Below, piece by piece: positions 3,873 through 28,342 of a DNA stretch of 56,378 nucleotides. The stretch spans positions 1-56,378 of the forward strand of contig JANBVI010000046.1 in NCBI GenBank assembly GCA_024239075.1, in the 5' to 3' direction. Position numbers and translations under genes: made by a program. How positions within the stretch are numbered: the first letter of the stretch is position 1; every line of letters starts with the position of its first letter. This DNA comes from Fischerella sp. CENA71. Its GTDB lineage: Bacteria; Cyanobacteriota; Cyanobacteriia; Cyanobacteriales; Nostocaceae. The notes under the pieces were generated by a model, which was given only the letters and a program-made list of their open reading frames with translations, made no database searches and had not been told where the DNA came from.

Positions 3873-4283
3873 ATGGCGATAGTAAACAAGATTAGTTCAA
3901 AAATAGTACAAACCTCTCATTACAGCAATAGTGCTAATACACTTTCAAAGAGCAATAGCCAAAAACAGAGGTTGTCATTTATAAATTGTCCATCTCAAGA
4001 ATCATTAAAAGCTTATTTGATTTTGTATCTATCCAACTATTTACAAATTTCTTATCAGGAGTTAGATGTTAATCTTCCATTTCATTATTATGGGATGAAT
4101 TTAGTAGACCAATTATCTCTTACAAGTATGCTTGAAGATTACCTTGGATATTGTATTCCTAACGATATAGTTTGTAAATATCCTACTATAGAGAAACTAG
4201 CTGAGTATTTAGTTGAGGGAGTAAGCGTGCGAGTAAAACACAATTCTTGTTCATTGATTACATTCAAAAATTGTCTCATCTAA
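3873..4283 (+). CDS. Acyl-carrier-protein-like protein without the pantetheine serine
   Basis: The 136-residue protein has an unstructured, Ser/Asn-rich N-terminus (about 1-40) and then an ACP-like four-helix segment (about 42-115). The usual G-x-D-S-L block reads G74-M-N-L-V78, so the serine that carries phosphopantetheine is Leu77. The codon is TTA at 4101-4103, one transition away from TCA (Ser). The helix that follows (SLTSMLEDYLGYCIPNDI) and a YPTIEKLAEYL tail remain ACP-like. The gene lies 171 bp before the phosphopantetheinyl transferase gene on the same strand. It may be a decayed carrier or a non-carrying scaffold or partner protein. The ribosome binding site is weak (GGAAAAG, rather far from the ATG). 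Confidence 0.7.
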   Translation: MAIVNKISSKIVQTSHYSNSANTLSKSNSQKQRLSFINCPSQESLKAYLILYLSNYLQISYQELDVNLPFHYYGMNLVDQLSLTSMLEDYLGYCIPNDIVCKYPTIEKLAEYLVEGVSVRVKHNSCSLITFKNCLI

Positions 4284-4454: not shown

Positions 4455-5204
4455 ATGGTAGGTATCAATTATTTATGGCTTCCTCCGTCGGCCAATTGGA
4501 CACTATTGAATGATGATGTTCATGTATGGAGTGCTTCCCTCAACTTACCAACATTTCGCGTTCAACAACTGGCACAAAAACTTTCAATAGACGAATGTAT
4601 GAGGGCGGAGCGTTTTTACTTTGAGCGCGATAGAAAGCGTTTTATAGTCGGTCGTGGACTTCTCAGGACAATTCTAGGACGTTATTTGGGCATTGAAGCA
4701 GAGCGACTACAGTTTTGTTATGGCCCTCATGGAAAGCCAGCTCTTGTAGAAACACTTGGTGAAACTATAGTTAATTTTAACTTATCTCACTCTCAAGATT
4801 TAGCTTTATATGCTATAACGCGTAAGCGCAAAATAGGTATAGATGTTGAATACATTCGTCCTATTGCAGATATTGAACAATTTGCAGCACGTTTTTTTTC
4901 GATTCGTGAACAAGCTGTTTTTAATGCTCTCCCTGCAAACCAAAAGCTAACAGCACTTTTTCATTGCTGGACTTGCAAGGAAGCTTTTGTTAAAGCCATT
5001 GGAGATGGATTAACTTTTCCCCTGAATCAGTTTGATGTCTCTTTATCCTCAAATGAACCAGCTCAACTGCTCAATATTAGAGGTGATTCTTCTTGTGTAA
5101 ACCATTGGTCTCTGAAGAAATTGAAGCCACTCCCTAAATATGTAGCAGCTTTAGCTGTAGAAGGAAACGGTTGGCATCTTACATGTTGGCGGTGGCCAGA
5201 GTGA
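4455..5204 (+). CDS. Sfp/HetI-type 4'-phosphopantetheinyl transferase
   Basis: The 249-residue protein has the full Sfp-class signature: FNLSHSQDLALYA (108-120), the Mg-binding G-I-D130-V-E132, and W172-T-C-K175-E176-A-F-V-K180 with A-I-G-D-G after it. The N-terminal half has GRGLLRTILGRYLGI and GPHGKPAL, also typical. The enzyme transfers phosphopantetheine from CoA to carrier-protein serines, here most plausibly the two ACP domains of the PKS at 12190-17253. Because the PKS tail seems to hold only a dead PPTase-like segment, this free enzyme would be needed in trans. It converges on the lipocalin-like gene with a 36-bp gap. Confidence 0.95.
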   Translation: MVGINYLWLPPSANWTLLNDDVHVWSASLNLPTFRVQQLAQKLSIDECMRAERFYFERDRKRFIVGRGLLRTILGRYLGIEAERLQFCYGPHGKPALVETLGETIVNFNLSHSQDLALYAITRKRKIGIDVEYIRPIADIEQFAARFFSIREQAVFNALPANQKLTALFHCWTCKEAFVKAIGDGLTFPLNQFDVSLSSNEPAQLLNIRGDSSCVNHWSLKKLKPLPKYVAALAVEGNGWHLTCWRWPE

Positions 5205-6281: not shown

Positions 6282-7199
6282 TTATCTAGAAATCAATACC
6301 ATTTCTTCCAACTGCTTCAGAGAAGGCGTAGTCGAGTAAGGCTGATGCAGGGAAATGATTTCAGCTAATGTTTTCTTTAACTGTGTGCGAGCTACAATTT
6401 TATCAACAAAGCCGTGACGCATCTGGTCTTCAGCAGTTTGGAAATCATCAGGTAACTTTTCTCGCAGTGTTTGCTCAATGACTCGACGACCTGCAAAACC
6501 AATTAACGCCTTTGGTTCTGCTATGATAAAATCGCCTAACATAGCAAAACTAGCAGTTACACCTCCTGTGGTTGGATGAGTCAAAACAGGGATATAAAGC
6601 AAGTTCGCTTCACGATGGTACTCTAGAGCTCCTGAAATTTTAGCCATCTGCATCAGACTGAGCATTCCTTCTTGCATTCTGGCACCACCTGAAGCACAAA
6701 CAATGACCACAGGGTAACGCTTTTGTGTCGCTCGTTCGATGAGACGAGTAAGTTTTTCACCGACTACAGAACCCATACTTCCGCCCATAAATTGGAAGTC
6801 CATGACCCCAAGAGCGATGGAAAAGCCTTCAAGTTGACCTAAACCAGTTTGTACAGCATCTACTAAACCAACTTTTTTCTGAGTTTGTGTCAGGCGATCG
6901 CTATAAGCTTTGTGATCGCGGAATTTCAGTGGATCAGTTGAACTTATTTGTTCATCGAGAGCTACCCAAGTATCAGGATCAATAAGCTGATGGATACGTT
7001 CGTAGCTATCTACTCGTTCATGATGTCCACATGCTACACAAACCATCTGATTTACTCGTAGGTCTTTAGTATAAGTTAAAATAGCACATACAGTACATTT
7101 ACTCCATAAACCAGAGGCAAAATCACGCTCTTGGCGCTCTGCATTTGCATTTATAGGTAAAGATTTGCGACGATTTGCAAACCAATCAAATAGAGACAT
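6282..7199 (-). CDS. accD: Acetyl-CoA carboxylase carboxyltransferase beta subunit
   Basis: The 305-residue protein starts with [13 protein letters not shown] and carries the AccD zinc ribbon (W-S-K-C-T-V-C ... C-V-A-C-G-H). The carboxyltransferase core follows: [15 protein letters not shown], a glycine-rich [45 protein letters not shown], and [18 protein letters not shown]. With AccA it transfers carboxyl from biotin on AccB to acetyl-CoA, making malonyl-CoA. It belongs to the minus-strand gene run coming from the PKS. A complete AccABCD set lies in this window, which suggests a paralogous enzyme dedicated to the PKS; whether another accD exists in the genome cannot be seen. An AGGAGG-like site precedes the ATG. 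Confidence 0.96.
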
Positions 7200-8218: not shown

Positions 8219-10147
8219 TTAAGTAAGTTGCAATCTTTTATGAATGATGCAAGCACTGAGTACTCTCATCAAAAAAGGTTCTATAGAGGTACGTTGACTT
8301 GTGTCCATTTTTGGCAGTTGCTCAAGCAAATCAATAATTGCAGCCTGGTTATAGAATGGTACACCAGACATATCTGAACCTCTGAGGGTGTCTTGAATAA
8401 GCTGATGTAAAGGCTGCTCAGGTTTAAAAGAAGAAGGAGGAGCCAAAAAAGGATGTTTTTGGCGTTGATATACTGTCTTGGTGAGGAAAGGTTGCGCTGC
8501 TTGTCTCAATACATATTTTTCAGTCAGACCATGAATTTTGAGTCTAGCAGGCATATTGCAGACTAATTCAACAACTTTATGATCCAAAAATGGTAGCCGT
8601 CCTTCTATAGAATTTGCCATTTCCACACCATCACCCAACATCCTCAACAGATAATTGGGTAGCATCGTTTTGGCCCACAAATAGAGAGATTGATGCACAT
8701 GTTCTCTACCTTGGAGTTGTCCTTGTACATCTATTTGATTGAAAAATTTACGATAGATATCATGTTGGGCAAATCGTGCCGTGAATTCTGGTGAATAGAA
8801 GCTAACAGACTTCAAATGTCCCGCAGCAGAAGCTCTCATCCAAGCAGGAAGAAAACCTAGCAAGCGCTGGACACTGTTTAAAGTTTGACTTGATTTATCC
8901 TCAGCTAACAACAAACCTACCGAAACTTGATTTGTCCGTTTTAACTGTTCTAGTTGGTCTTGTATTGTCTGCTCATCTTGTCCATGCTGGTTATCAAGCA
9001 ACATATCCTGACGAAAATGAGCATAACCACCAAAAATTTCATCTGCACCTTCACCTGTGAGGACTACTTTGTAACCTGCGTTTCGAGCTGCACGACTTAA
9101 TAAATACTTGGCAGTTGTATGAGCATTAATGCAAAGCATCTCACAGTTTGTAACTGCATCAGCGAAATGTTCAGCGAGGTCGGATTGGCGAATAGGGATA
9201 ATTTGGAGATTAGCTCCAGTGTGTGCTGCTGTTTCGCGAGCTATTGTTTCTTCGTTATAAGCTTCATCATCAAAAGCGAGAGTGAACGCTTGGACAGGTT
9301 GAGAGCTATGAGTTGCTGCCATTCCTAAGACAGCAGAGGAGTCAAGACCACCACTTAAATAGCAACCAACTGGGACATCTGCTTTCAAACGTAACTGAAT
9401 AGCCTCATCTAATGTATGACGGAGTCTTTCAATATCATCCTTTGGAGTGGATTGCTTTATCGTGTCATGCGCGAGGGGATAATTAAAATCCCAGTAAGAC
9501 TGCAATTGTATACCAGAGCTAGATGCAAGCAGAAAATGACCAGGTGGCACTTGATACACATTGGCAAACAAAGTACGGTCATTTTCTAGGATACCGTGAT
9601 TAGATTGCCAAAAAGATTCATAATCCCAAGCAGCTGGTACACCTGCTGCAAACAATGCTTTGACTTCAGAAGCAAGATAAAGATTACCGCCGTAATAAGA
9701 GTAATATAAAGGCTTAATACCAAAGCGATCGCGTGCAGCAAATAACAACTCGTTACGTTGATCCCAAATTACAAAAGCAAACTCACCCCGTAGATGATGT
9801 AAACATTGTGTTCCAAATTCGTTGTACAAGTGAAGTGCAATTTCACTGTCAGAATGAGTTTGCAGCTGATAGCCCCAGCGCTTCAAATCATGTTGTATCC
9901 GCTCAAAGTCGTAAAACTCTCCATTAGCAACAATGCGTAGATTTCCCTCTGCATTCTGAATTGGTTGTTCTCCTCCAACAAGGTCAATAATACTCAGTCG
10001 GGTATGACCCAAAGCGACTCTATGGGTAGAGTCTATCCAATATTTTTGTCCATCTGGGCCTCGATGATGTAAACTAGCCAGAGCTTGCTGGATTGATGGC
10101 TCAGAAATCTGCCTTTGATTTGAGAATAGCGCGACTATTCCACACAT
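8219..10147 (-). CDS. asnB: Asparagine synthetase (glutamine-hydrolysing) family amidotransferase
   Basis: The 642-residue protein begins M-C-G-I-V-A-L-F with the N-terminal nucleophile Cys2 of class II glutamine amidotransferases. It continues with HHRGPDG and GHTRLSIIDL, and carries the ATP-pyrophosphatase loop GCYLSGGLDSSAVLG near residue 260 and LTGEGADEIFGGYAHF near 365. The family converts aspartate to asparagine, but many cluster-borne homologs amidate or cyclise carboxylic acids in natural products. Its place in a PKS operon (36 bp after the flavoprotein gene, GGAAG before ATG) suggests amidation of a polyketide acid, which is inference. The length is usual for the family. Confidence 0.93.
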   Translation of the reverse strand: MCGIVALFSNQRQISEPSIQQALASLHHRGPDGQKYWIDSTHRVALGHTRLSIIDLVGGEQPIQNAEGNLRIVANGEFYDFERIQHDLKRWGYQLQTHSDSEIALHLYNEFGTQCLHHLRGEFAFVIWDQRNELLFAARDRFGIKPLYYSYYGGNLYLASEVKALFAAGVPAAWDYESFWQSNHGILENDRTLFANVYQVPPGHFLLASSSGIQLQSYWDFNYPLAHDTIKQSTPKDDIERLRHTLDEAIQLRLKADVPVGCYLSGGLDSSAVLGMAATHSSQPVQAFTLAFDDEAYNEETIARETAAHTGANLQIIPIRQSDLAEHFADAVTNCEMLCINAHTTAKYLLSRAARNAGYKVVLTGEGADEIFGGYAHFRQDMLLDNQHGQDEQTIQDQLEQLKRTNQVSVGLLLAEDKSSQTLNSVQRLLGFLPAWMRASAAGHLKSVSFYSPEFTARFAQHDIYRKFFNQIDVQGQLQGREHVHQSLYLWAKTMLPNYLLRMLGDGVEMANSIEGRLPFLDHKVVELVCNMPARLKIHGLTEKYVLRQAAQPFLTKTVYQRQKHPFLAPPSSFKPEQPLHQLIQDTLRGSDMSGVPFYNQAAIIDLLEQLPKMDTSQRTSIEPFLMRVLSACIIHKRLQLT

Positions 10148-10183: not shown

Positions 10184-12028
10184 TCAAATTTTCGCTGAGA
10201 CAGCACTAATTTTTTTTTGATCAAAATTACTGTTTAACTCACCTTGAGAAAGTTGATTTTCTTGAGTAAATTCTTCAGGTATCCAAGGTTGTAATTCGGG
10301 GCGATATTGATAGTTTTTAAATTCTTGCCGCATCTTCTCAATTGAACTATTGTCAGATAATCCTTTCTTGATTTGGAAGCGATAAATTAACTCTAGGAGC
10401 GCCCATTGGCCCGATACAGTTAAGAGTCGGAAGAAATGATACAAATGTCTTGGATTTAAGCAACCAGCTAAACCAAAACTTTTCCATTGAAACAATGCAT
10501 ACCAAATCGCAGCATTAAAGAAGTTAGATTTGACGCCAGCAAACACATTGCATCGTAGAGGCTCAAATTTAGTATTCTCTAGAAAATCATCGAAATATTT
10601 AGGTGTATGATATCCTCCAAATAACTGATCTGCTCGATAAAGATCCATTAATCCAATATTTGCTCCTTGATTTACCAACTGCTGAAATTCTTTAAATAGA
10701 TCAATCCAAAATCCTCCTATATTTTTGTAGCTAAGTTTCAAATACATGTTGGTAAATTCTGGATTCAAATGCCACTTTCCTGCATAAGTTGGTACGTGAA
10801 TACTGAACCACCACATCCAGTCGAGATAAATACGCCAACTCATCAGACTTGCATGACCTAGCTGTTTAGCATGATCATAGTAGACATGGTTAATCAAGTT
10901 GTGATAATAGAGATTAAACTCATTGTAAGCAGAACGTTTTTTATCTACATCTGCTTCACCTGCGATTTTTGCTCGAATAATTTCCGTAACACTTTCGATT
11001 GCAAATGCTAATAAAGTAGTTTCAATACAATAGAAACCACCAAAGAAAGAAGCAGAATTACCAATGACATACCAATTATCTTCAGAGAAAAGTTTTTTAC
11101 TTTTATAAGCAATTCTTGGCATGTAATGAAAATCAACGATTTCACCACTATCAATGAGTTGATAAACAAGTTTATGATTAGCTTGCATAAATGCAAGGAA
11201 TTTCTCCTGTGTATCAATTCCCTCAGCTGGTAATACTTCATGATAATGAACAATACCCACAGAAAGTTCTCTTGATGGAATATCAGTGGGAGTCATCCAT
11301 AACCAATGACCATAGCCAAAATAATGATTAGTGGAATAGTAACGGCTAGTAGATGTTTCATTTGGGCTATAACCATCATGGAAGATGGTGCGATTCACAT
11401 TTTTTACTCGCAACCATGCTGTACCATTATTCAATCCACAAAGATGTTGTGGCCCAAGCAGAAGATTATCCGTTTTACGTCCAATAATAAATTGACGACC
11501 AGCACCATCAACAACATAATCGGCTTTCAGTGCTATTTCTTGATCAGCGACTTGAATTTTAACAATATTAACAGCATCACCCTCAGTTAACTCTACATCA
11601 ACCACAGAACCTTTGTAGACAATGGCTCCCATGGCTTCATTCATGAGCACTAAATCCTGCTCAAATTTAGTACGATTAATTTGATAAGAAGCAATCGAAA
11701 GTTGTCGGTTACACCAAATATGATAGTAATCGTCTAAAGTCGTAGTTTGATCTGGACGCTTGGGCCAATGAAAACTCAATGTAGACCTGAGAATGTGGTT
11801 TTCAATTAAGTAATCATGAAGCCCTAATTCCTTACAAAAAAATAAATCGGCAATTTCAATTGTGGAATCGTTAATGGCAGGTTCATTTTCTAATTCTTGT
11901 GCAGGCAAATCAACCAGAGCTACTTTGATATTAGGAATGTTCAGCATTAGGTGGCGAGCTTGGCTTAAACCTGCCAAAGTTGTACCTAGAATTACAACAT
12001 CGTATTTTAATGATTGAGTGGTGTACAT
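10184..12028 (-). CDS. Divergent FAD-dependent halogenase/monooxygenase-like protein
   Basis: The 614-residue protein has an N-terminal Rossmann start (YDVVILGTTLAGLSQARHL) in which the usual GxGxxG reads G15-T-T-L-A-G20. The region where halogenases have G-E-S/A reads N-D-S-T-I (53-57). The later motif W242-L-W244-M-T-P247 resembles the W-x-W-x-I-P motif of the tryptophan-halogenase superfamily, and VVDGAGRQFIIG and WYVIGNSASFFGGFYCIET match FAD-contacting segments. About 230 C-terminal residues are rich in Trp, Tyr and Phe. It may halogenate, hydroxylate or desaturate the polyene, or have lost catalysis. It follows the PKS gene on the same strand. Confidence 0.7.
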   Translation of the reverse strand: MYTTQSLKYDVVILGTTLAGLSQARHLMLNIPNIKVALVDLPAQELENEPAINDSTIEIADLFFCKELGLHDYLIENHILRSTLSFHWPKRPDQTTTLDDYYHIWCNRQLSIASYQINRTKFEQDLVLMNEAMGAIVYKGSVVDVELTEGDAVNIVKIQVADQEIALKADYVVDGAGRQFIIGRKTDNLLLGPQHLCGLNNGTAWLRVKNVNRTIFHDGYSPNETSTSRYYSTNHYFGYGHWLWMTPTDIPSRELSVGIVHYHEVLPAEGIDTQEKFLAFMQANHKLVYQLIDSGEIVDFHYMPRIAYKSKKLFSEDNWYVIGNSASFFGGFYCIETTLLAFAIESVTEIIRAKIAGEADVDKKRSAYNEFNLYYHNLINHVYYDHAKQLGHASLMSWRIYLDWMWWFSIHVPTYAGKWHLNPEFTNMYLKLSYKNIGGFWIDLFKEFQQLVNQGANIGLMDLYRADQLFGGYHTPKYFDDFLENTKFEPLRCNVFAGVKSNFFNAAIWYALFQWKSFGLAGCLNPRHLYHFFRLLTVSGQWALLELIYRFQIKKGLSDNSSIEKMRQEFKNYQYRPELQPWIPEEFTQENQLSQGELNSNFDQKKISAVSAKI

Positions 12029-12189: not shown

Positions 12190-15100
12190 CTAAAGCGCAA
12201 GTACAGCAGCTGGCTTTGCAGATGTCTCGACAAGAGCATTGAATAACTCTTGTGGCCAAGGAGTGGCTATAGGAGTACCATCAGCAAGGTGCTTAATCCA
12301 TAACACTTCTTGTTGTCCAACATGCAGTTTTTCTGTAGTACCGTCTTGCAGTTCGCGGAAAAATTCTAAATTGAATGTAGCTCCACACTCTGAAACAGAC
12401 TCTACATAAAGAAGAACACGAATCTTATCGAAAGGCATTGCTTCTCGTAAATAATTCATTTGGCTGTAAAGACAAATCATTTCTCCTTGAGACTGAGAAC
12501 TCAGTAAGTAATCAGGAGCAACTGAGTAAAGAAAGAGGTCTAAAATTCGACCTTGCCAAATGAAATAGTTGCTGTAGTAGATATTACCGACTAAGTTTGA
12601 TTCTTCTAAGGTCGTTTGGAAGAGTTCAGACTTGATTAATCTGCCTCGACGATTATCGTCTGAAGAAGCATGATAAATTACATTGCCAGAATTTAGTTGA
12701 GACAGAGATGCAGGTAGTATTGGCAGAGATGGAAACGTTGATTGTTTGAGATTGAGAGTAGCTGGTTGTTTAGCACCAAATTCTTGCAAATATTCTTGGA
12801 AGTATTTGGGAAATAGTTGAGATGAAGCTGTTCCATTACTACCTTTATGTACCCAAGTTGCTTTGACTTCAGCAATTGCCAAACGCTCTAGAGAATTATT
12901 CGGCAATACTTTACAAAACTCAATGTAGGTAGCAAAAGCGGAACCGACTACATCACCTAGCCAGCAGCGTGCTTGGATGGTATCGTAGGCAGTTGCTTCG
13001 CCCACTACTCGCAAGCTCACAGTTTTAGTCAATAAACTCCAATCACCATCTTGAAAATCTGTCAACATCTGTGAAGCAATACTTTTCATTGGTAGTTCGC
13101 GGATTTTTCCGACCCAATTGAAGTATTGTGAAAAGTATACATGGCGACTGATACTAGCGCTTTCTCTCAAGCTGACTTGAAAACTTTGTTCAAAAACTGG
13201 TTGTTCTTGAGGACCATTGTCCTTAGCAATACTTAACGTTGATGAGCGCTCTGTTGAATTTGTTTTTTCTTGAGATTGAGAAACAACGATGGCAATCATT
13301 CTTTGTGGAGGACGAGTCAACTTCACAGGTATGGTAATGACGTAATAGTCTCCAGAAGAAGTTTGACTTGCTAGTAGTACTGCATCTTTCTGTTTGGCTA
13401 CGAGTCTAAAGTTTGGTTGCGCTTGGTCAGTAACATTGAGGATAGCTTCAACTGCTGACCAGATACGAGTTCTAGCTGTGTCTGTTGTGTCTCCCTGCTG
13501 AATTAATTGATTTAGTAGTGGACGGTAAGAGTTACTTAGCTGACTTATTTCATCATCTTCTGATTGGTCTAGGACTGGTTGAATGTGACATCCTTGGGGA
13601 TGTTCTCCGACTGTGCATAGATAGTAGCGATCGCAACCAGACAAAGATAAATAGATGGCATTTGAACTATTTTCTTTGAACGTAAATTTTCCACTAGCAA
13701 GTGCTGCTTCAAAATCAAAGTCTACTTCCTCTTGTGGTTTTAACCCCAACATCTGCAACGCCTGAGTTACAAGCGAATGCTTTTGCTGTTGTTCGTGTTG
13801 AGGAGCGTACGCGAGATTAACTGTTGGTTGATTGATCCCAAATCCAGGAAAGGTAGTATTGAACAATTTTTGCAGATGACTGCGATCGCGAGCTTCAGGA
13901 GCAGCTAATTCAACTGCTGTGGGATTTTCTGGGTGTTCTTCCAAAATACGCAGACGATAACCAGTAATTCGCTCTACGATATATCCCTGTTCATCAAAAG
14001 CCACAACCTCACTGATATACTCACGTCCTTCTAGTTTTTGTAAAACAACATTAACGATCCTTGATGATTCCTGTGCATTCGGATTGGGGAATAATTCAAT
14101 CTGGTCAATTTGTACAGGTAAACAAATGTGCTTGGGAATGGTTAGTTGTACAGATTGCAGCAAAACATCCCGGAAATAGGGATCACCTAAGAGAATATAA
14201 CTATCTTGACCAGGAGCAAAACTATCTGCTACAAGCTCAGTTACAGAACTAACATAAGAACGGAAAACACTAGTTTTTTCGTTCAGCGAAAAGATACTAC
14301 CCATCCGTTGGAAACGCGTACCCTGGAAAAGTAAATCTCCGTACAGGTCTTTGAGAGGTTCTATATCTAGTGGTTGACCCAATTCCAACGGCGTTTTTGC
14401 TGTTTGTGTTGGCTGACCCAGAACTAGAGTAGCAGCAAAATGATCAGAGGTAAAACCGCTTTGCTCAGTACGGATTCCGACTTTGACTCGTGTTTCTCCA
14501 TAGGCGTTAACTTCCAAAACCTCAGCATGAAGCTCAATTTCCGTTCCGTCTGTAGGATGAACAACTATAGGACGCCTTAAAGAAATATCTTCAAGCCGTA
14601 AAATTGCAGGCTGTTGTTGACCAGTGACATAAGCAGTAACTTGTGTCATCGCTTCCAAACCAAATACAGTCGGGAAGAGGTATGAACCACGCCAGACGTG
14701 ATCCTGAACATAAAGATCTCGTTCTAAGCTCAAACGAGTTCGAGTCACTAATTCTACACAGGGTTCCACATAAAGCACTTGATCAACAAACCGAAGTCCT
14801 GTTGAGAATGGTAAATTTACAGGAGACCAAGTATCTAGACCGCCTAATCTAGCAGCGATCACAACTTGTGAGACTCCAGGATCGTAACTAAACAATTTGA
14901 GAAAGCGATCGACACCTTCTTGGGTAGGAATAGCACCAATACCCATACGTTCTAGATTTTTGACGCTACCCATGCGCGCACCCATACCAACTTCACCCCA
15001 AACACTGTAAGCTAAGGAGATAGTTTGAGTTGTAGGATATTTGTTTGCAAAGTCCTGAAACAGAAGTGCTAGAGACTCATTTGCAAAAGCATACCACGCA

Positions 15101-17253
15101 TTACCAGGCATTCCCGTGACTCCAATTATGGAGCTAAAAGCAACCAAAAGTTTTGGAGGATTTTCAGCTAAAGCTTGTAAAAGATTGTAAGCTCCAAGAA
15201 GTTTTGGTGACACTTCAACCACAGCTTCATCAATCTTGACCTGTTCTACTCGACGCGGCTTATTTAGACCTGCACCATGAACAACTCCTGTAATTGTGCC
15301 TAATTCGTCAGTAATTTTTGTCACTAACTGAGATACAACTTCAGCGTTAGTAATGTCACAAGAGTAATAACGACAAGTTAATCCTTGCTCGGCAAACCTT
15401 TCTAAGGTACGTGTAATCTCGTTTGTACCATCTTTAGGAGCAGGAGAACTGCCAACTAAAGCCATTTTGGTACCAGTGAACTGAGCAAGAGCTAACGCAC
15501 ATTCCGCAGTAATACCCTTTGCTCCTCCAGTCACAAGGATGACATCATCTTTTGACCAAGAAATTGCTCGTTGAGTATAGCTATTTGGCTGTTGAAGACG
15601 GTGTTGAGGTACTAGGCGTACTAAATTAGCGTCATAGCCAACCGTAGATATAGGTGCGTTTCCTGATACTTCACCTATTACCAAGCTTGCAGCAGAGCTA
15701 GCCTCAATTTCTGGAGCTAAGTCTACTACCCGAACTCGCACATCTGGTCGCTCAAAATGTAAACTGCGAGCAAACGCAGCAGCGCAACAGACATCTGGAG
15801 CAATTGTTTGCAAATCGTTCCCAAAACGACCACCACCAAATTGTACGTATGCAATGCAAGTATGAGCATCTTTCTTCGCAATTGTGGCAATGCTTTGTAG
15901 ACGTTCTACCATTGATTTGATTGGTAGAGGCGATCGCTGTTCTTGAGAGCTTGTTTGCGGTAAAATCGCAAAATAATGAGAGAAATCTTTTGGTAAAGAT
16001 TGTTCGTTAGCAAAAATTTGCTGGTAAGTGACTTGCTCAACTTGCGCCCCAAAACCGAGGAGTTGATTGCTCAAAGCACTGACTACTGGGTTTTCTACAA
16101 CATCAGCAACAACTAAGACTCTAGCTTGAGACCAGTTTTCTGTTGTTTGTGGAGCAGATGCTTGAGCTACATACTCAACAGCAAAATTTCTCACCCAGTT
16201 AAAACTTTGTTGAGAGTTAGTGGCAGATGCTTGAGGAGTCTTTGCTGCTGTTGCAACTGGAGCAGGCGCTCGATTAACTTTTGGTTCAGGATTTTTGGCT
16301 TTTTCAAAAACTGCTGCAACATCAGCTAAAGTTGAATTGGCTAACGCAGAAGCGTCTATTTGACCTCCAATACCAAATTGTTTAGCCGCAGTAGCAATAA
16401 ATTCCGCAGCTTTTATAGAATCTAGATTCAAATCATCTAGTAAGCGTAGCTCCAAAGATAAGGTTTCTTGAGGGAAGCCTGTTTTTTCTTCAACTAGCTT
16501 TAAAAGCAGTTGCGTTAAGTCAACCGACTCCTGTACAGACTCTGTACTTGCAGATATTTGTTTTGTTGAAGCCGATAGTGTATTCTCCTCCTCCGGCATA
16601 GCAGAGCGAATAACTGTTGCTATTTCTTGTAAAGTGGAGTTATTCAAAGAAGAAGAGTCAATTGTCCCAACAACACCAAATTTTCTGGCAGCAGTAGTGA
16701 CTAATTCACTGGCTTTAATGGAATCTAAATTTAAATCGTCTAAAAGTTTTGCTTCTGGGGTAACGATTTCTTTTGGATATCCGGTTTGCTGAACTACTAA
16801 ATCTACTAAAACAGTTTCAACATCTGGGGTATCCTGACGAGAATTAGCTGTTTGAGTAACTTCCTCTCTATCGATTACAGCAGTGTTGGAGTGATGCTTG
16901 CCATTGGTAGAAGCCGTACCATTACCATTGTGAGTAGCTATTCCATTAGTTTTAGCCTTACCATTGCCATTACCGTTGTGAGCAGCTACCCCGTTAGTTT
17001 TACCCTTACCGTTACCATTGCCATTACCGTTGGTAATAGGTAAACCACTAGAGAGCTTTTTAGAATTGTGATTACCGTTACCGTTTCCATTGAGGATAAC
17101 CGGGTTATGCCGATTTCTCAAGTGTGGCAAACTTTGTAAATCGGCGCGGATGACTTTAGCTAAAAATGAACTACGTTGGGAAAAGTAACTCGATAGAAAC
17201 TCAATTAGCTCTTCTCTTGGCAAAGAGTTTGACGAATGACTGGAGTTATGCAT
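12190..17253 (-). CDS. Type I iterative PKS, ACP-ACP-KR-DH with dead PPTase-like segment and two hot-dog domains
   Basis: The 1687-residue protein shows, in order: a docking-like helix (13-43); an Asn/Gly linker (about 55-120); ACP1 (LDDLNLD177-S178) and ACP2 (LD278-S279); KR (VTGGAKG at 574-580, SS at 707-708, Y721); and DH with H852-V-W-R-G856 plus xxxxP861 and a second half with D1029-V-L-L-Q1033. A segment at about 1195-1275 recalls the PPTase domain of enediyne PKSs but has G-C-H-I-Q for G-x-D-x-E and W-S-A-V-E-A for WxxKEA. Two hot-dog domains follow (about 1355-1475 and 1535-1660); the second has N-L-V-G-N-I-Y-Y-S-N-Y-F, like enediyne-type thioesterases. The KS-AT gene ends 5 bp upstream, so the two proteins probably form one split synthase. 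A hgl- or PUFA-type synthase is the main alternative. Confidence 0.88.
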   Translation of the reverse strand: MHNSSHSSNSLPREELIEFLSSYFSQRSSFLAKVIRADLQSLPHLRNRHNPVILNGNGNGNHNSKKLSSGLPITNGNGNGNGKGKTNGVAAHNGNGNGKAKTNGIATHNGNGTASTNGKHHSNTAVIDREEVTQTANSRQDTPDVETVLVDLVVQQTGYPKEIVTPEAKLLDDLNLDSIKASELVTTAARKFGVVGTIDSSSLNNSTLQEIATVIRSAMPEEENTLSASTKQISASTESVQESVDLTQLLLKLVEEKTGFPQETLSLELRLLDDLNLDSIKAAEFIATAAKQFGIGGQIDASALANSTLADVAAVFEKAKNPEPKVNRAPAPVATAAKTPQASATNSQQSFNWVRNFAVEYVAQASAPQTTENWSQARVLVVADVVENPVVSALSNQLLGFGAQVEQVTYQQIFANEQSLPKDFSHYFAILPQTSSQEQRSPLPIKSMVERLQSIATIAKKDAHTCIAYVQFGGGRFGNDLQTIAPDVCCAAAFARSLHFERPDVRVRVVDLAPEIEASSAASLVIGEVSGNAPISTVGYDANLVRLVPQHRLQQPNSYTQRAISWSKDDVILVTGGAKGITAECALALAQFTGTKMALVGSSPAPKDGTNEITRTLERFAEQGLTCRYYSCDITNAEVVSQLVTKITDELGTITGVVHGAGLNKPRRVEQVKIDEAVVEVSPKLLGAYNLLQALAENPPKLLVAFSSIIGVTGMPGNAWYAFANESLALLFQDFANKYPTTQTISLAYSVWGEVGMGARMGSVKNLERMGIGAIPTQEGVDRFLKLFSYDPGVSQVVIAARLGGLDTWSPVNLPFSTGLRFVDQVLYVEPCVELVTRTRLSLERDLYVQDHVWRGSYLFPTVFGLEAMTQVTAYVTGQQQPAILRLEDISLRRPIVVHPTDGTEIELHAEVLEVNAYGETRVKVGIRTEQSGFTSDHFAATLVLGQPTQTAKTPLELGQPLDIEPLKDLYGDLLFQGTRFQRMGSIFSLNEKTSVFRSYVSSVTELVADSFAPGQDSYILLGDPYFRDVLLQSVQLTIPKHICLPVQIDQIELFPNPNAQESSRIVNVVLQKLEGREYISEVVAFDEQGYIVERITGYRLRILEEHPENPTAVELAAPEARDRSHLQKLFNTTFPGFGINQPTVNLAYAPQHEQQQKHSLVTQALQMLGLKPQEEVDFDFEAALASGKFTFKENSSNAIYLSLSGCDRYYLCTVGEHPQGCHIQPVLDQSEDDEISQLSNSYRPLLNQLIQQGDTTDTARTRIWSAVEAILNVTDQAQPNFRLVAKQKDAVLLASQTSSGDYYVITIPVKLTRPPQRMIAIVVSQSQEKTNSTERSSTLSIAKDNGPQEQPVFEQSFQVSLRESASISRHVYFSQYFNWVGKIRELPMKSIASQMLTDFQDGDWSLLTKTVSLRVVGEATAYDTIQARCWLGDVVGSAFATYIEFCKVLPNNSLERLAIAEVKATWVHKGSNGTASSQLFPKYFQEYLQEFGAKQPATLNLKQSTFPSLPILPASLSQLNSGNVIYHASSDDNRRGRLIKSELFQTTLEESNLVGNIYYSNYFIWQGRILDLFLYSVAPDYLLSSQSQGEMICLYSQMNYLREAMPFDKIRVLLYVESVSECGATFNLEFFRELQDGTTEKLHVGQQEVLWIKHLADGTPIATPWPQELFNALVETSAKPAAVLAL
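16885..17095. repeat. In-frame minisatellite coding an Asn-Gly linker
   Basis: Short tandem units of the CCATTAC/CCGTTAC kind (plus strand) encode repeated N-G-N-G, K-T-N-G and A-H-N-G-N-G blocks at about residues 53-122 of the PKS protein. Unit lengths are multiples of three, so copy number could vary without frameshift. It likely makes a flexible tether between the docking helix and ACP1. Confidence 0.8.
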
Positions 17254-17258
17254 GATTT

Positions 17259-20200
17259 TTATTTACCCTCATTTTCTCCGTTGTTGGATGCCATAATCGG
17301 TAGACTTTCCAAGTCAGCTTGAATCAGGTTGGCTAAAAATGAACCACGTTCAGCAAAGTAATTGGATAGCATAGATTCCAACTCTTCTTCTATTTGCCAA
17401 GGACGTGCTAAATCTGAGCGCTGTTCTGGTTCATATTCAGCGTTGAGGATTTGTCTCATTTCCAGCAAATCTCCAGCAGTTAGCATATCGGAAAATGGTT
17501 TTGCAGGAGGAATTTGCAGAGGACGTTCACAGGGATTTTCGATGAAAACACGTTGAGAAGTTGGAATGAAAGCACGTACAAGTCGGTTTTCGTAAAGTGC
17601 ATTCCATTTAATTTCACCACCATGAATAAAGAAACTACCTAAAAAGGTGTTGAGGTCTTCATCACGGTCTGGCTTTGATTCTAAAGGAAAGCACTGGGGT
17701 TGTTGCTGTTCAGTTATGGTATTAACTAGATTAGAAAGCACTTTACCAGGGCCGACTTCTACCATGAGATCACATTTTGATGCGATCGCTTTGACTGTGG
17801 AAATAAAATCTACTTGAGAAACGACCTGCTGAGAAAAATGTTCACGCATATTTAGTCCAGGCTGGACTAACTGACCATTCACACTGGAGAATAATTCTAC
17901 GGAAGTTGCTTTTAGTTCCTGGGGAATTGGTGCATTTGCTTGTAGATATTCCGCAGCTTTGGAGACAAGCTGAGAATGAAAAGCGTTACTAACTGGTAAA
18001 ACAGTGGTTTGAATATTTTGGTCAGCAGCAAGCTTGACAACAGCTTCCACACTAGAACTCTCGCCAGAGATCACAGTCTGTTTTGGACTGTTGATATTTG
18101 CCACTACTACGTAACCATCTACTTGTTGTATTAGCTGTGTCGCAACTTCCGAGGAGCAACCGAGACTAGCCATAATTCCAGCATTATCATTAGACGCAGA
18201 CATCGCCTGTCCTCGCACTGCTGCTAAACAAAGCAAGGATTTTTCGTCAAATGCTCCAGCCGCGGCGAATGCACTCAGCTCACCAAGACTATGACCACCG
18301 ACTGCTACAGGTTGAATACCAAGACGTTCGAGATAATGCTTCCACAATAGGGAAACAAGACAAATAGCTGGTTGAGCAACTTCAGTTTGTGCTAGCTGTT
18401 TTGACCATGTTTGTAGCTGTTCTGCATCCACAGCACGCTCTAGAAAACGATAAATCAATTCACTAACTGGCTTAACTCCTAATTCCTCCAGATATGTATT
18501 TGCTTGGTTAACTATTTCTCTGGTCCAGTCGTAGCGTTCTACAAGTACACGAGCCATATTTAACTTTTGTGAACCCTGACCAGGAAACAGAAAAGCAACT
18601 CGGCTGCGTTTGACGTTATTCGAGATCCAGATTTCTTTTTGAGGAGAAACAACCACCTCTCCAACAGCTGGAGGTGTATCGTTGAGCATTTGTTCGAGTT
18701 GTTTAAGGCCCTGAATCAATTCTTCTGGCGTACCAGCAATGACAGCAGCCCGGACTGGTTGTTGAGATTTGATTTCATTGGCAAGTTTTGCTGCTAAATC
18801 CAGAAGTTCAGCGATACTGATTCCTGCTGCTATGTCTCTGACGGCTTGAGTACGTTCAAGCAAAGCTTCAACAGAAACCGCACTCATAACAAATAATTCT
18901 GTATTTTGGTGAGAAACTAGCAGTGCTTGTTCAGCTATCGACGGTTTTAGGCGGGGTGTAGGAGCATCTCCAGATTCAATAGTTATGTGACAATTGATAC
19001 CTCCAAATCCCATCCCAGAAACACCTGCTCGAATCTTGTCTGTTTGGTTGCGGACTTCTCCCTGGATAATCGGGTAAACAGACAAAGCAGATTTTTCCAA
19101 TACTGGATTTAGTTCTTGACAGCCTGCGGTTGGAGGTAGGATTCGCTGGTTAACACCCATAACCGCCTTAATAAAGCCACCTACGCCTGAAGCTGCTTTG
19201 GTATGTCCCACCAAGGATTTGAAGGAAGTTATACCGATCGTACGAGGTTTTACTTCACCTTCCATACTCATGGCTAGTGCAACAGCATCTAGTTCTGTGC
19301 GATCGCCCAGAGGTGTACCAGTACCATGTCCTTCTATAAAATCAACGCTGTGTAAACTATAACCTGCTCTATCATAGGCACGACGAATTGCTTTTGCTTG
19401 ACCAGTTTTAGAAGGTGCTGTAATTCCACCTTTACCATCAGATGAAATTCCCCAACCATTGATTACTGCATAGATATAATCTCCATTTGCTTGAGCATCT
19501 TCTAAACGTTTGAGAACCACAAAACCACAGCCTTCACCAGGAATAAAGCCATTGGCGCGGCGATCATAAACGTTCATGTCTTGGGTAGCAAGCGCACCAG
19601 CTTTAGCAAATCCAATTAATTCAAATGTGTCTAAGCTGACATCTACACCTCCGGCTAATGCCAAGTCAAGGTCGCCGTTAGTTAAAGCTGTAGCAGCTGT
19701 TGCTATGGCGATGAGAGAAGAAGCGCAGGCTCCATCTACAGTATATCCACCACCATCAAAGTTATAAAAATTGCAAACACGACCAGCAATAGTATTGGAA
19801 AGACCAGCAGCTAGTGCATCCTCAGTTACTGGTGGGAATACAGACTTATAAACTTCCTCCATTGTCTCTAAAAGGGTTTCCACAATTCCTTGTGGTAAAC
19901 CTTTTACTTGTGCAGATACACGCAGGACTTTCTGCACATATGGCCAGCGTAATCGAATTGAACTGGCTCGTGATTGCTCTCCTGTTAAAGTATTTCCGAG
20001 AATAACTCCTGTGCGATCAGTAGGAACACTATCACGAGTATATCCAGCATCTTTTAAAGCTTTATCAGCGACTTCTAGAGCTAACCAATGGACAATATCA
20101 GTATGCTCAAAAGTTTTTTTGGGAATTCGCTTACCCATCCAGTCAAATTCAAAACCATCTATTACACCTGCACGTGTACCGTAGGTTTTGTCTGGTGCTA

Positions 20201-20393
20201 GAGGATCTGGATCATGGTACTCAGATAGTGGTAATCGTTGATCAGGTAATTGTCTGAATTGACGTCGCCTTGCTAATATATTTTCCCAGAGTTGTTTGAG
20301 GTCATTAGCACCAGCATAGTGACAACCCATACCAACTACAGCGATCGCATTTTTAGAAGTTAAAGATTCTATTGTGGGTGTTGTTATTGTCAT
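17259..20393 (-). CDS. Type I iterative PKS, KS-AT protein (PKSE-like)
   Basis: The 1044-residue protein carries a KS (about 14-475) with the full triad: Cys223 in VDGACASSL, His356 in EGHGTGTPLGD, His397 in VGHTKAASG. The AT (about 597-900) has FPGQGSQ, G-H-S702-L-G-E and an N-A-F-H806-S block typical of malonyl selection. KS blocks such as GVILGNTLTGEQSRA, RLRWPYV, TEDALAAGLSNTIAGRVCN and GWGISSDGKGGITAP are those I associate with enediyne/PKSE-type iterative synthases. The C-terminus (1001-1032) repeats the helix found at the N-terminus of the partner protein encoded 5 bp downstream. A heterocyst-glycolipid or PUFA-type KS is the alternative. It follows an HTH-less TetR-like gene by 112 bp. 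Confidence 0.92.
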   Translation of the reverse strand: MTITTPTIESLTSKNAIAVVGMGCHYAGANDLKQLWENILARRRQFRQLPDQRLPLSEYHDPDPLAPDKTYGTRAGVIDGFEFDWMGKRIPKKTFEHTDIVHWLALEVADKALKDAGYTRDSVPTDRTGVILGNTLTGEQSRASSIRLRWPYVQKVLRVSAQVKGLPQGIVETLLETMEEVYKSVFPPVTEDALAAGLSNTIAGRVCNFYNFDGGGYTVDGACASSLIAIATAATALTNGDLDLALAGGVDVSLDTFELIGFAKAGALATQDMNVYDRRANGFIPGEGCGFVVLKRLEDAQANGDYIYAVINGWGISSDGKGGITAPSKTGQAKAIRRAYDRAGYSLHSVDFIEGHGTGTPLGDRTELDAVALAMSMEGEVKPRTIGITSFKSLVGHTKAASGVGGFIKAVMGVNQRILPPTAGCQELNPVLEKSALSVYPIIQGEVRNQTDKIRAGVSGMGFGGINCHITIESGDAPTPRLKPSIAEQALLVSHQNTELFVMSAVSVEALLERTQAVRDIAAGISIAELLDLAAKLANEIKSQQPVRAAVIAGTPEELIQGLKQLEQMLNDTPPAVGEVVVSPQKEIWISNNVKRSRVAFLFPGQGSQKLNMARVLVERYDWTREIVNQANTYLEELGVKPVSELIYRFLERAVDAEQLQTWSKQLAQTEVAQPAICLVSLLWKHYLERLGIQPVAVGGHSLGELSAFAAAGAFDEKSLLCLAAVRGQAMSASNDNAGIMASLGCSSEVATQLIQQVDGYVVVANINSPKQTVISGESSSVEAVVKLAADQNIQTTVLPVSNAFHSQLVSKAAEYLQANAPIPQELKATSVELFSSVNGQLVQPGLNMREHFSQQVVSQVDFISTVKAIASKCDLMVEVGPGKVLSNLVNTITEQQQPQCFPLESKPDRDEDLNTFLGSFFIHGGEIKWNALYENRLVRAFIPTSQRVFIENPCERPLQIPPAKPFSDMLTAGDLLEMRQILNAEYEPEQRSDLARPWQIEEELESMLSNYFAERGSFLANLIQADLESLPIMASNNGENEGK

Positions 20394-20446
20394 TGGTTTA
20401 CCTTGTTATATCAAGCTCCTGTATTGAAAATGGGTGTGGGGTATAA

Positions 20447-20470: not shown

Positions 20471-20505
20471 TTTAATAGAAGACATTGATTTTTGCACTCT
20501 GCATG

Positions 20506-23009: not shown

Positions 23010-23056
23010 CTATTTTCATGCTTGGCAATGAAATTTTTTCATTGGGACTATCGAGT

Positions 23057-24873: not shown

Positions 24874-25605
24874 CTAGTTTTTTACAGTCACACCTATTTT
24901 ATGAGCCTCATCCGCTAAATTAGTATTTTGGGCTAAATACCCATCTTCCATACGAACAATACGGTCAGCAATATCTAGAATACGATTATCATGAGTCACA
25001 ATCAGGATAGTACAACCTTGTTCTTTAGCAAGGCGTTGCATAAGTTCAACAACATCACGACCTGATTTTTTATCTAAAGCTGCTGTAGGTTCGTCAGCCA
25101 AAACTAATTTAGGTTTTCCAACTAAAGCTCTGGCGATCGCTATTCTTTGTTTTTGTCCTCCCGAAAGATTTTCTGGATAATAGTTAATACGTTGCTCTAA
25201 ACCAACTGCTTGCAGCATGGCTTCAGACCTAGCACGTATTTCTTGCTGAGAGAGGCCATCGTTCAGTTCTAAAGATAACTGAACATTTTGTCGAGCCGTT
25301 AAGAATCCTAGCAAGTTGTGAGCTTGGAAAATATAACCTATTTGACGACGGACTTGCACCAGTTGTTTTTCACTGCTTCCGTATAGTTCTTGACCGAGAA
25401 ATTTCAGACTACCTGCTTGCACAGAACGTAAGCTACCGATCAAGCTCAATAAAGTTGTTTTACCTGAGCCTGATGGGCCAGTCATAATAACAATTTCTCC
25501 AGCTTCAATTTGCAGATTAATATCAAATAAAATCTGCTTTTTTAATGCGCCTCTACCATAGTAGTGATCAAGATTTTTGATATCAATAACAGGTATTGTC
25601 ATCAT
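24874..25605 (-). CDS. devA: DevA-type ABC exporter ATPase
   Basis: The 243-residue ATPase has TGPSGSGKTTLLSLIG, LSGGQKQRIAIARALVG, LVLADEPTAALDKKSG and an ILIVTHDNRILDIADRI switch. The start (IDIKNLDHYYGRGALKKQILFDINL) is characteristic of DevA/MacB-like ATPases of cyanobacteria. With DevC and DevB encoded upstream it forms an exporter that works with a TolC-type outer-membrane protein; the founding DevBCA exports heterocyst glycolipids. Inside this locus it is the likeliest export route for the polyketide product. Confidence 0.92.
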   Translation of the reverse strand: MMTIPVIDIKNLDHYYGRGALKKQILFDINLQIEAGEIVIMTGPSGSGKTTLLSLIGSLRSVQAGSLKFLGQELYGSSEKQLVQVRRQIGYIFQAHNLLGFLTARQNVQLSLELNDGLSQQEIRARSEAMLQAVGLEQRINYYPENLSGGQKQRIAIARALVGKPKLVLADEPTAALDKKSGRDVVELMQRLAKEQGCTILIVTHDNRILDIADRIVRMEDGYLAQNTNLADEAHKIGVTVKN

Positions 25606-25632
25606 AAGTTTTATTCAAAAAATACAACTTTA

Positions 25633-26787
25633 CTAAAAAATATCTGCTGGATCAGCTGATTGGAGTTTTCGTACTGCGATCGCACCAGAAATAGAACACA
25701 TTAATATTGTTAAAGTTAATACTTTTAAAGCTGTATCAAGAGTCATAATCATAGGCAGGAGTGTAACTTGCCTTGCTAAATGATATTGAAAAATTGCAAA
25801 ACTAAATCCAGGTATATAACCAAGAATTGCTAATATCAAAGCTTCTTTTAAAATTACAAATAACAAGTAATTATTTGTATATCCCATTGCTTTTAAAGTT
25901 GCATATTCAGGTAGATGGTCGGAAACTTCTGTATAAAGAATTTGATAGACAATAACAGTTCCAACAAAAAAACCTATAGCTATACCTAAACCAAAAATAA
26001 ATCCTAGTGGTGTATTACTGTGCCAGTAATCTTTTTCAAAATCAAATAGTTCTTCTTTTGATAAAACTTTAACGTTTTTCGGTAAATATTTTTTTAATTC
26101 TTCTAAAATAATTTCTTTATCTGTTCCTGGTTCTAAAGAAATCATTCCTATATCAATTAAACCAGACTTACGCTTGTTAAATATACGTAAAAAAGTTAAA
26201 TCACTTGTGGTTATTGTACCATTAATGGCAAAAGATGTTCCTAACTCAAACACTCCTCCAACTTTTACTCTACGATTACCAACTTCTGTTGTAATTTGTT
26301 TTCCTTGATTAAATTCATCAACAATATCTCCAAATTCTTTTCGAGATCCTCTATCAAACAAAACTATATCTAACAAGCTAATCCTATCTAGATTATGTTC
26401 AATATCTGGAATTTTAAAAACATTATTATCTGGGTTTATGCCAACAATAAATATACTGTGAATCTGATGATTCTGAGGATTTTTCCAACTATTAAAACCA
26501 AAATATACAGGATATACAGACTTTACACCTTTTAATCCCAAAGATTGGTATAAAGTTCTTTGAGAAAAGGTTTTCATATCAACTAGTGATTTAGAACGAG
26601 GGTTGATTAAAGCAATATCACCATCTAAGTTTTTATAAAAACTAACAGCACTTTCAAAAAGAGATTGATTAAAACCCATTTGCATGAACATCAAGATGTC
26701 TGCAAATCCAATTCCAGCCAATGCCACAAAAAGACGAATTTTTTTTCTAGTTAGTTGTAACCATGCTAAAGATGTTTTTCTAGCCAT
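25633..26787 (-). CDS. devC: DevC-type exporter membrane subunit
   Basis: The 384-residue protein begins RKTSLAWLQLTRKKIRLFVALAGIGFADILMFMQMGF, the hallmark N-terminus of DevC proteins. It has a large periplasmic middle and three C-terminal membrane helices with an FtsX-like YATLKAMGYTNNYLL block. It lies 27 bp before devA and 133 bp after devB. An AGGTGA site precedes the ATG. Length is normal for the family. Confidence 0.93.
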   Translation of the reverse strand: MARKTSLAWLQLTRKKIRLFVALAGIGFADILMFMQMGFNQSLFESAVSFYKNLDGDIALINPRSKSLVDMKTFSQRTLYQSLGLKGVKSVYPVYFGFNSWKNPQNHQIHSIFIVGINPDNNVFKIPDIEHNLDRISLLDIVLFDRGSRKEFGDIVDEFNQGKQITTEVGNRRVKVGGVFELGTSFAINGTITTSDLTFLRIFNKRKSGLIDIGMISLEPGTDKEIILEELKKYLPKNVKVLSKEELFDFEKDYWHSNTPLGFIFGLGIAIGFFVGTVIVYQILYTEVSDHLPEYATLKAMGYTNNYLLFVILKEALILAILGYIPGFSFAIFQYHLARQVTLLPMIMTLDTALKVLTLTILMCSISGAIAVRKLQSADPADIF

Positions 26788-26920
26788 AATTGTTTCACCT
26801 AAAATTATTGTTTTTATCTAATGATCTAGAAAATGGGCAGTTTGGGATAGAAATCTAATTAATCATCAGATTTCCTAATCCCAAAATGAATTTTGATATT
26901 AATATAATGACGAGCAAATT

Positions 26921-28033
26921 TTATTTTGAGATATTAATCTTTACAACAACTTTGGCATAAGTTAAACCCGATACTAGTTTGCTATCTTTTGGAATTAGGC
27001 GAACTTTGACTTCCACAATTCTGGCATCCATATCTGCTGATGGATCTGTATCAAGCACATTTTGTTTACTAATTTTTTTGCCGATATTAATTACGGTTCC
27101 CTGTAATTTTCCAGGAAAAGCGCCATAGTTACTGGTGATAGTAACTTTTTGACCTAAACGTACTTTACCAATATCGTTTTCATTAACCTCTGCTACTGCC
27201 ATCATTTTAGTAGTTTGGCCAAGTTCTAAAATTCCTTCATTCAGAATGTTTTCGCCAGGTCGTGTATGAATTTTTAGTACTTGCCCATTTATTGGACTAT
27301 GAATATATGATAAGTTGAGATTTGCTTGCGCTTGTTTAACAGCCGCGATGGAATACTCTACCTGAGCTTGAGCTGCTTGCACATCAGTGGGGCGAACTTC
27401 AGAAATACTTACTAAGGTAGATTTAGCTTGGTTTATTTGTTCGCGATCTGTTTCTACTGCTAAACGTTTATTATCTAAAAGGGAAGCAGAAATAGCACCA
27501 GCTTGGTGAAGATATTGATAACGTTCAAATTCTTTTTGATCAATCTTTAATTGCACTTCTAAGCGGTCAATTATTGCTTTTTGGGCTTGAATATCTCCAA
27601 CTTTTGCTCCAGCTTTCACTTTTTTTAAATTGGCTCGTTCAACTTGAACTTGCTGTTTAGCAGCAACTAAAGCTGTTTGACTTTGCTCAAGGTTATCTAA
27701 GGTTGCAATCACCTGACCTTTACGCACAACATCCCCATCTTTTACAAATAACTGAGCTATTCTTGCTCCTTGTCCTACAACTGGGGTTGGTGCAGACACC
27801 TTAATTACCTCTCCTTCTGGTTTTAGGATTCCTAAAGCACTAACATTGATAACTTGAGGAACTACATTTTGTTTAGGGATTGGTAACGGTTGTTGCAAAA
27901 CTTGCTGAGAACGTAAAAGGTTATAAATAGTAACTGTACCAACAGCTAAGGTGACACTAAATGCTAAGATAGAAAGCCGTTGAGCTATCGTTTTAACACC
28001 GACTTGATGATTCTGAATAGATTTATGTGTCAT
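26921..28033 (-). CDS. devB: DevB-type membrane fusion (HlyD-like) adaptor
   Basis: From ATG at 28033, which has AAGGA 8 bases upstream, the protein is about 370 residues. The frame extends to 28072 but with poorer starts. It has one N-terminal membrane helix, then VSALGILKPEGEVIKVSAP, a lipoyl-like half (QLFVKDGDVVRKGQVIATLD), a long coiled-coil hairpin, and the second half (IHSPINGQVLKIHTRPGENI). DevB-type adaptors link DevC/DevA to TolC. The upstream 309 bp (28034-28342) hold only AT-rich sequence; I saw no GTAN8TAC NtcA site. Confidence 0.9.
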   Translation of the reverse strand: MTHKSIQNHQVGVKTIAQRLSILAFSVTLAVGTVTIYNLLRSQQVLQQPLPIPKQNVVPQVINVSALGILKPEGEVIKVSAPTPVVGQGARIAQLFVKDGDVVRKGQVIATLDNLEQSQTALVAAKQQVQVERANLKKVKAGAKVGDIQAQKAIIDRLEVQLKIDQKEFERYQYLHQAGAISASLLDNKRLAVETDREQINQAKSTLVSISEVRPTDVQAAQAQVEYSIAAVKQAQANLNLSYIHSPINGQVLKIHTRPGENILNEGILELGQTTKMMAVAEVNENDIGKVRLGQKVTITSNYGAFPGKLQGTVINIGKKISKQNVLDTDPSADMDARIVEVKVRLIPKDSKLVSGLTYAKVVVKINISK

Positions 28034-28342
28034 ATGAAAGTCCTTAAATTTTTCTTTCATTGATACTCGCAATTGAATAACAAATTATATTGATTTTTAC
28101 GGATAATTTTTAACTATATTGACGATTGCCTTTTAGATATTGCGCTACATTGTATTTGTAATAACAGCAAACTAATATGTTGTCTTTAGCTTAATTTATG
28201 GAGCATTAAGTTCATGTTATATGAGCTAAAAAATTTGTCACATAAGATAAGGATAATAAGCATGAATTTAAACATTTTGCAAACCCCCATACTCTAAAAA
28301 GTAGGGGATTCGCACTGAATTAGCGTTAAAGAAGCAACAGAA

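Follow-up and report, generated by a model that had tools for sequence, protein, structure and literature searches.

The window considered here, a stretch of 56,378 bases that makes up one whole contig (G000:C46) of Fischerella sp. CENA71, carries two adjacent minus-strand genes which probably encode a single iterative, malonyl-fed, RerA/RerB-type polyketide synthase (PKS), split between its acyltransferase (AT) and acyl carrier protein (ACP) domains and making a linear polyene that would then be modified. The two-gene synthase resembles the recently described RerA/RerB polyene synthase; it differs in its cut site, with a copy of a linker on both sides of it.

Domain layout and relation to RerA/RerB

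In the upstream gene, Pfam detects a ketosynthase (KS) and an AT. After a gap of 5 bp there follows a gene for a protein of 1687 residues, in which two ACPs, a ketoreductase (KR), a dehydratase (DH) and a C-terminal 4HBT_2 match are detected. The features of the two proteins, including a phosphopantetheinyl transferase (PPTase; PPT for the domain) relic and two thioesterase (TE) halves, are as follows, all on the minus strand:

17259..20393, minus: KS-AT protein of 1044 residues, first gene of the split PKS (open reading frame, Pfam, KS trees)
19119..20351, minus: KS domain, active-site motifs kept (Pfam, motif reading)
17706..18593, minus: AT domain, with GHSLGE and AFHS (Pfam, motif reading)
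17304..17378, minus: upstream linker copy, C-terminus of KS-AT (motif comparison)
12190..17253, minus: second protein, 1687 residues, linker-ACP-ACP-KR-DH-PPT relic-TE1-TE2 (open reading frame, Pfam)
17131..17205, minus: downstream linker copy, N-terminus of the second protein (motif comparison)
16624..16827, minus: ACP1, with LDSIK (Pfam, motif reading)
16312..16509, minus: ACP2, with LDSIK (Pfam, motif reading)
15004..15540, minus: KR domain (Pfam, motif reading)
13927..14754, minus: DH domain, HxxxGxxxxP and DxxxQ kept (Pfam, motif reading)
13249..13695, minus: degenerate PPTase domain, with GCHIQP and EAILNV (alignment)
12811..13182, minus: TE1, N-terminal hot-dog half, without the Asn motif of TE2 (alignment, structure model)
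12193..12624, minus: TE2, C-terminal hot-dog half, enediyne-thioesterase-like (PDB matches, structure model)

An earlier sequence-only reading had placed KS-AT on one protein and ACP-ACP-KR-DH on the next, 5 bp apart, and had quoted the KS blocks GNTLTGEQSRA, RLRWPYV and GLSNTIAGRVCN. The same coordinates and strand were found here, Pfam agrees, and all three blocks were located in the KS-AT protein; the observation is confirmed, while the interpretation built on it as a whole is partly supported. Catalytic motifs are readable in the KS, the AT, both ACPs, the KR and the DH, with the roles that we take these motifs to have, and the AT is presumably of malonyl type, judging by GHSLGE and AFHS. 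On the tandem ACPs the chain would be extended by the KS, reduced by the KR and dehydrated by the DH and, since no enoylreductase domain was seen in the two PKS proteins, would become a linear conjugated polyene.

By sequence comparison, the RerA/RerB type appears to be the nearest characterised analogue of the PKS in the window. In Rhodococcus erythropolis PR4, RerA (KS-AT-ACP-ACP-KR-DH) and RerB (PPTase, an unknown domain Y and a TE) were described in 2024 as producing polyenes up to C22 nonaenes, with colour being lost on inactivation of the KS or the PPTase (PMC11563203). The window shares the order KS-AT-ACP-ACP-KR-DH-PPT-Y-TE and an enediyne-like KS. However, RerA is one chain down to the DH and RerB comprises PPT-Y-TE, whereas the window is cut between AT and ACP; likewise, the Rer PPTase is needed for colour, whereas the built-in PPTase of the window is degenerate. 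The polyene-forming activity proposed from the sequence is consistent with this analogy, through which it is upheld. Among 351 genomes drawn from the family of the genome holding locus L107, 22 gave matches at 1e-120, and neighbourhoods were fetched for five of these. The four best-matching genomes hold Rer-like pairs (2053-2056 and 518-528 residues) with the same domains one by one, and no relatives of DUF1702 or of the flavin adenine dinucleotide (FAD) proteins described below were found beside these pairs in stretches of 18-19 kb; judging by sizes and domain order, these four genomes may be Rhodococcus. The fifth genome (G659) has a canonical enediyne-type PKS (PKSE) with E4 and E5.

A fused hot-dog domain with NLVGNIYYSNY had been noted earlier, and its PDB matches (SgcE10, 4e-12; CalE7, 6e-12; DynE7, 1e-7) identify it as a fused counterpart of the E10 hot-dog thioesterase. 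There are, however, two hot-dogs, and the one noted (TE2) is half of a double: in the structure model, TE1 and TE2 together form a single FatA-like double hot-dog thioesterase. Identity to the plant FatA/FatB acyl-ACP thioesterases is about 12%, and the version in the window differs from these in being fused to a PKS and in carrying an enediyne-thioesterase-like motif in TE2. The double hot-dog would release the polyene; TE2 is likely to supply the catalysis, and TE1 to serve a structural or substrate-binding role. Domain Y of RerB is likely the N-terminal half of such a thioesterase, equivalent to TE1, and thereby gains a likely identity.

The PPTase-like relic reported after the DH can be aligned to the PPT domains of both SgcE and RerB-like proteins. 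Of 25 PPT rows, 23 keep the Asp of GCD and the Lys of RKA; only the window and its sister locus L059 have lost them, so that the domain is present but does not appear to be an active one of the enediyne-PKSE type. The loss of these two residues makes it probable that the ACPs are activated in trans, a discrete PPTase encoded on the same contig being one candidate.

The split and its duplicated linker

Each of the 14 complete split pairs (about 11 of them distinct) has a linker motif, roughly 25 residues long, flanking the break on either side; the pairs come from several genera, with gene gaps of -8 to 199 bp. This count omits L061, which meets a contig end, L071 and L076, whose breaks lie elsewhere or are uncertain, and G235, G237 and G357 as duplicates. 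Among fused relatives the motif was detected in 20 of 24, as a single copy each. Upstream copies have upstream copies as best matches in 10 of 11 cases, and downstream copies match downstream copies in 11 of 11. On the KS tree, where L061 was scored as split and L071 and L076 were left unscored, two changes are required to explain the trait across 15 split and 38 fused rows. The exception is G097, which is fused within the split clade and has no significant linker motif (0.42).

The plain reading of these sequence patterns would be a single duplication, a stop separating the two copies, and later one re-fusion, which suggests a route from a one-chain PKS to two proteins. The two copies may act as a docking pair by which the proteins associate. 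The gap of only 5 bp could also be taken to mean that faulty sequencing or assembly has broken up a single-chain PKS, a reading that deserves next to no credence given the recurrence of the same break, flanked by the linker and with variable gaps, in the 14 pairs, and the small number of changes on the tree. The rearranged, split PKSE of the sequence-only reading is therefore really split, but the KS-AT/ACP cut is a trait common to a supported cyanobacterial clade and not peculiar to this strain, and the linker duplication had been overlooked. The plasmid locus of Gloeothece verrucosa PCC 7822 (L017) has the same split and a Dev-type exporter, as well as three genes labelled 'tryptophan 7-halogenase'; it differs in that its PPT domain keeps both Asp and Lys. 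No DUF1702 match was obtained on this plasmid record, no Gloeothece being among the 49 matching plasmid records.

The ketosynthase lineage

Two KS trees were built, the first with 78 rows after removal of seven of 85 (three duplicates, four short or distant) and the second, which includes Rer-like KSs, with 73, after further long, odd or short KSs had been removed and five rows added. In the first, the window belongs to a set of 53 rows whose sister group comprises seven actinobacterial enediyne-type PKSEs, SgcE among them, and a cyanobacterial PKSE from G078; modular rows, Hgl-like rows and those PfaA rows that pass the NCBI cut-off are excluded from both at 100/100. The second tree agrees. 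The window's own clade consists of 17 cyanobacterial rows (99/98 and 99/96 in the two trees). Rows from Nitrospiraceae and Desulfobulbaceae lie inside the wider cyanobacterial group in the 78-row tree and are unresolved with respect to it in the 73-row tree; as they may fall within it, that group is not strictly cyanobacterial. Rer-like KSs and the window share a 55-row clade in the second tree (96/81), the next node, of 53 rows, having 90/52.

Comparison of KS-AT against plasmids by tblastn gave 59% identity to Gloeothece verrucosa, 39-44% to enediyne-type PKSs of Streptomyces and Nonomuraea, and then 34% to a Persicobacter PKS that groups with PfaA on the KS tree. One-chain versions with PPT-TE1-TE2 occur at loci labelled Thermoflavimicrobium, Myxococcota, Nitrospiraceae, Desulfobacterales and Methylococcus. 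On these sequence data, the KS lineage is best placed as a sister to the actinobacterial enediyne PKSs, covering several cyanobacterial families and other phyla. The label of PKSE-like iterative PKS thus stands in so far as the KS joins enediyne-type KSs, but the KS is sister to the actinobacterial PKSE clade and outside it (the cyanobacterial G078 does group with that clade), and the analogue is RerA/RerB. Enediyne-type KSs of cyanobacteria have already been noted (PMC4247773; PMC10308959), as has a lake bin resembling a Microcystis PKS (PMC5826242); the pertinent passages of these sources give no product for cyanobacterial members.

A heterocyst glycolipid or polyunsaturated fatty acid synthase (Hgl/Pfa) with an odd layout would also have tandem ACPs and suit a cyanobacterial host, and the PfaA model TIGR02813 gives KS-AT 459 bits. 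This score is far under the cut-off of 1010, however, the KS is apart from the genome's own PfaA and Hgl-like KSs at 100/100, and the genome has separate loci of these kinds, C64 and C88 above the PfaA cut-off and C57 Hgl-like. The last, to which we give the Hgl label, combines KS-AT-ACP and an NMO domain and lies next to a KR-DH gene. An Hgl/Pfa identity is contradicted by both grouping and score and is very improbable; since the KS joins enediyne-type KSs and not PfaA or Hgl-like ones, the grouping named beforehand as fatal to a PKSE-like assignment was not encountered.

Other PKSs of this kind were also observed. A second one in the same genome (L015, G000:C30:163704-174347) is one chain from KS to DH, beside a separate 209-residue PPT protein and two FAD proteins, and Fischerella muscicola PCC 73103 has two different loci (L069, L103). 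A complete canonical enediyne-type cassette is present in the cyanobacterial genome G078 (G078:C15:1-39800, L045/L046, joined coordinates 12986-24171), with identities to C-1027 of 52% (TE), 47% (PKSE), 51% (E5), 44% (E4) and 40% (DUF1702); ten neighbouring proteins scanned by Pfam included an aminotransferase and a glyoxalase, with no P450 or halogenase in those ten.

Neighbouring genes and the fate of the polyene

The genes around the PKS which bear on arming, modification, supply and export are:

3873..4283, plus: stand-alone ACP-like protein
4455..5204, plus: discrete PPTase (92% identity to the syntenic copy in Westiellopsis prolifica)
6282..7199, minus: AccD-like carboxyl transferase, with a second genomic copy at 76% (Pfam Carboxyl_trans)
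8219..10147, minus: AsnB-like amidotransferase, for which the sister genome has just a 258-residue match at the corresponding position (Pfam)
10184..12028, minus: FADa, PKS-linked FAD halogenase-like protein with degenerate motifs (Pfam, alignment)
24874..28072, minus: three-gene exporter of ABC ATPase, FtsX-type permease and HlyD-type adaptor (Pfam; homology to DevA/DevC-annotated loci)
28343..30202, minus: FADb, flavin-dependent halogenase near CtcP and PltM (Pfam, sequence match)
30454..31467, minus: DUF1702 protein, E3-type enediyne-cassette family (Pfam/profile, tree)

FAD proteins of this kind with at least 500 residues occur in 27 of 34 cyanobacterial loci, some truncated at a contig end, and also in the Myxococcales locus L095, where a protein like the CtcP/PltM type and a DUF1702 protein flank the PKS. 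In an alignment of 57 rows (G235, G237 and G357 removed as repeats of L064, L063 and L065), FADa and its L059 copy depart from the halogenase motifs: they have Arg at the Lys kept in 51 rows, Asp where all 55 remaining rows have Glu, and Asn at the Asp kept in 52, reading NDST and GNSA in place of GES/GD. FADb aligns with CtcP, the tetracycline 7-halogenase, over 516 residues (E 4e-135) and keeps the Lys and the WxWxIP motif, to which we assign their presumed roles in halogenation; it resembles CtcP and PltM in sequence and differs from them in sitting in a PKSE-like cluster. FADb would probably halogenate the released or ACP-bound polyene, DUF1702 would act in some later step, and the DevBCA-like exporter would move the product out. 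The most likely product is a linear polyene, possibly halogenated. For both the PPT domain and FADa, discrete genes may have taken over from degenerate ones.

DUF1702 is present as a single copy in the genome, above cut-off in seven of 386 cyanobacterial genomes and in 13 of the 34 cyanobacterial loci around the PKS. It was found in three of 16 genomes reached through other loci (those of L102, a Streptomyces, L095 and L099), and 47 of its 49 plasmid-record matches are from Streptomyces. On the DUF1702 tree, actinobacterial E2/E3-type copies form their own clade, outside which the cyanobacterial copies fall. We take E3 to be DUF1702, which fits the gene order in L018 (C-1027), and the window would thus hold an E3 partner; to our knowledge, the role of this family is not settled. 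A search of the genome for E4 (UnbV), with G078 serving as positive control, gave no homologue, and E5 has no close homologue there, its only match being distant (26%, 3e-11) and on a different contig. The earlier statement that partner genes are not seen thus holds for E4 and for a close E5, but it passed over DUF1702 and the two halogenase-like FAD proteins of the same conserved block. Side observations concern L040 (G382), L041 (G191) and L047 (G278), where DUF1702 is present twice, together with a carotenoid oxygenase of RPE65 type and a relative of aldehyde dehydrogenases; the Pfam scan covered the copies in G382.

Actinobacterial PKSEs with E3/E4/E5/E/E10 (C-1027, L018) are like the window in their sister KS clade, the KS-AT-ACP-KR-DH-PPT order, an E10-like thioesterase and DUF1702, and unlike it in that the window has two ACPs, a fused double hot-dog and a split gene, and lacks a detectable E4 and a close E5. 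A true enediyne pathway, in which DUF1702 and FAD enzymes turn the polyene into a 9- or 10-membered enediyne, would draw on the enediyne-type KS, the enediyne-like TE2 and the DUF1702 gene; three of the five functions by which PMC5181780 defines the cassette (E3/E4/E5/E/E10) have counterparts here (E3-like, E and E10-like). It is nevertheless quite improbable, given the E4 and E5 results and the position of both the KS and DUF1702 outside the actinobacterial clades. A halogenated or alkynyl polyene made by a route parallel to enediyne biosynthesis, with CtcP-like halogenation, DUF1702 acting on the halogenated chain without E4/E5 and the linker docking pair letting one iterative PKS work as two proteins, also appears unlikely. 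A DUF1702 gene beside a PKSE-like synthase without E4 or a close E5 offers a smaller system in which to probe the role of this family.

Several points weigh against a modified RerA/RerB-type polyene. Chain length is not readable from sequence, and the PPT relic may be retained for structural reasons. The clustered PPTase need not serve the ACPs, since W. prolifica has a further PPTase, 50% identical, elsewhere. The nearest solved relatives of FADb presumably work on aromatic rings, and FADa is degenerate at several conserved motifs. Two of the seven DUF1702 genomes have no KS match at the cut-off used; the G278 contig starts within the ACP-KR-DH part, and no such PKS was seen nearby in G143. 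Non-cyanobacterial relatives mostly lack FAD-family and DUF1702 neighbours, so that the later steps lie outside the core machine.

Parts of the cluster may also be decaying, since FADa is degenerate and the sister-genome locus has a short AsnB and no BCCP, AccC, SDR or KAS III. That the cluster as a whole is decaying and makes nothing now has a small chance of being right. The degenerate PPT domain, the transposase-like and phage-integrase-like pieces between two cluster parts (31724-35300, not matched in W. prolifica) and the in-frame stops in the KS-AT match of two relatives, L055 (G149) and L056 (G022), would fit decay; against it, all core PKS motifs are kept, and identity in W. prolifica is 94.7% for KS-AT and 89.7% for the second protein, with both frames open, 92% for the PPTase and 93% for FADb.

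For a working polyene synthase, dedicated malonyl-CoA supply by the contig's Acc-type genes is possible: XFP, AckA, AccA, AccC, BCCP and the AccD-like gene, a name which we assume for 6282-7199, are all on the PKS contig. XFP, AckA, AccA and the AccD-like gene are kept in synteny in W. prolifica, and BCCP, AccC, 2TM, SDR and KAS III had no match in 80 kb around the syntenic place. The NMT1/ABC transporter genes at 21621-24778 have counterparts in W. prolifica about 25 kb away in opposite direction (72-76% DNA identity). A small protein family with no Pfam match (7324-7683) is found beside PKSs of this kind in 12 of the 34 cyanobacterial loci.
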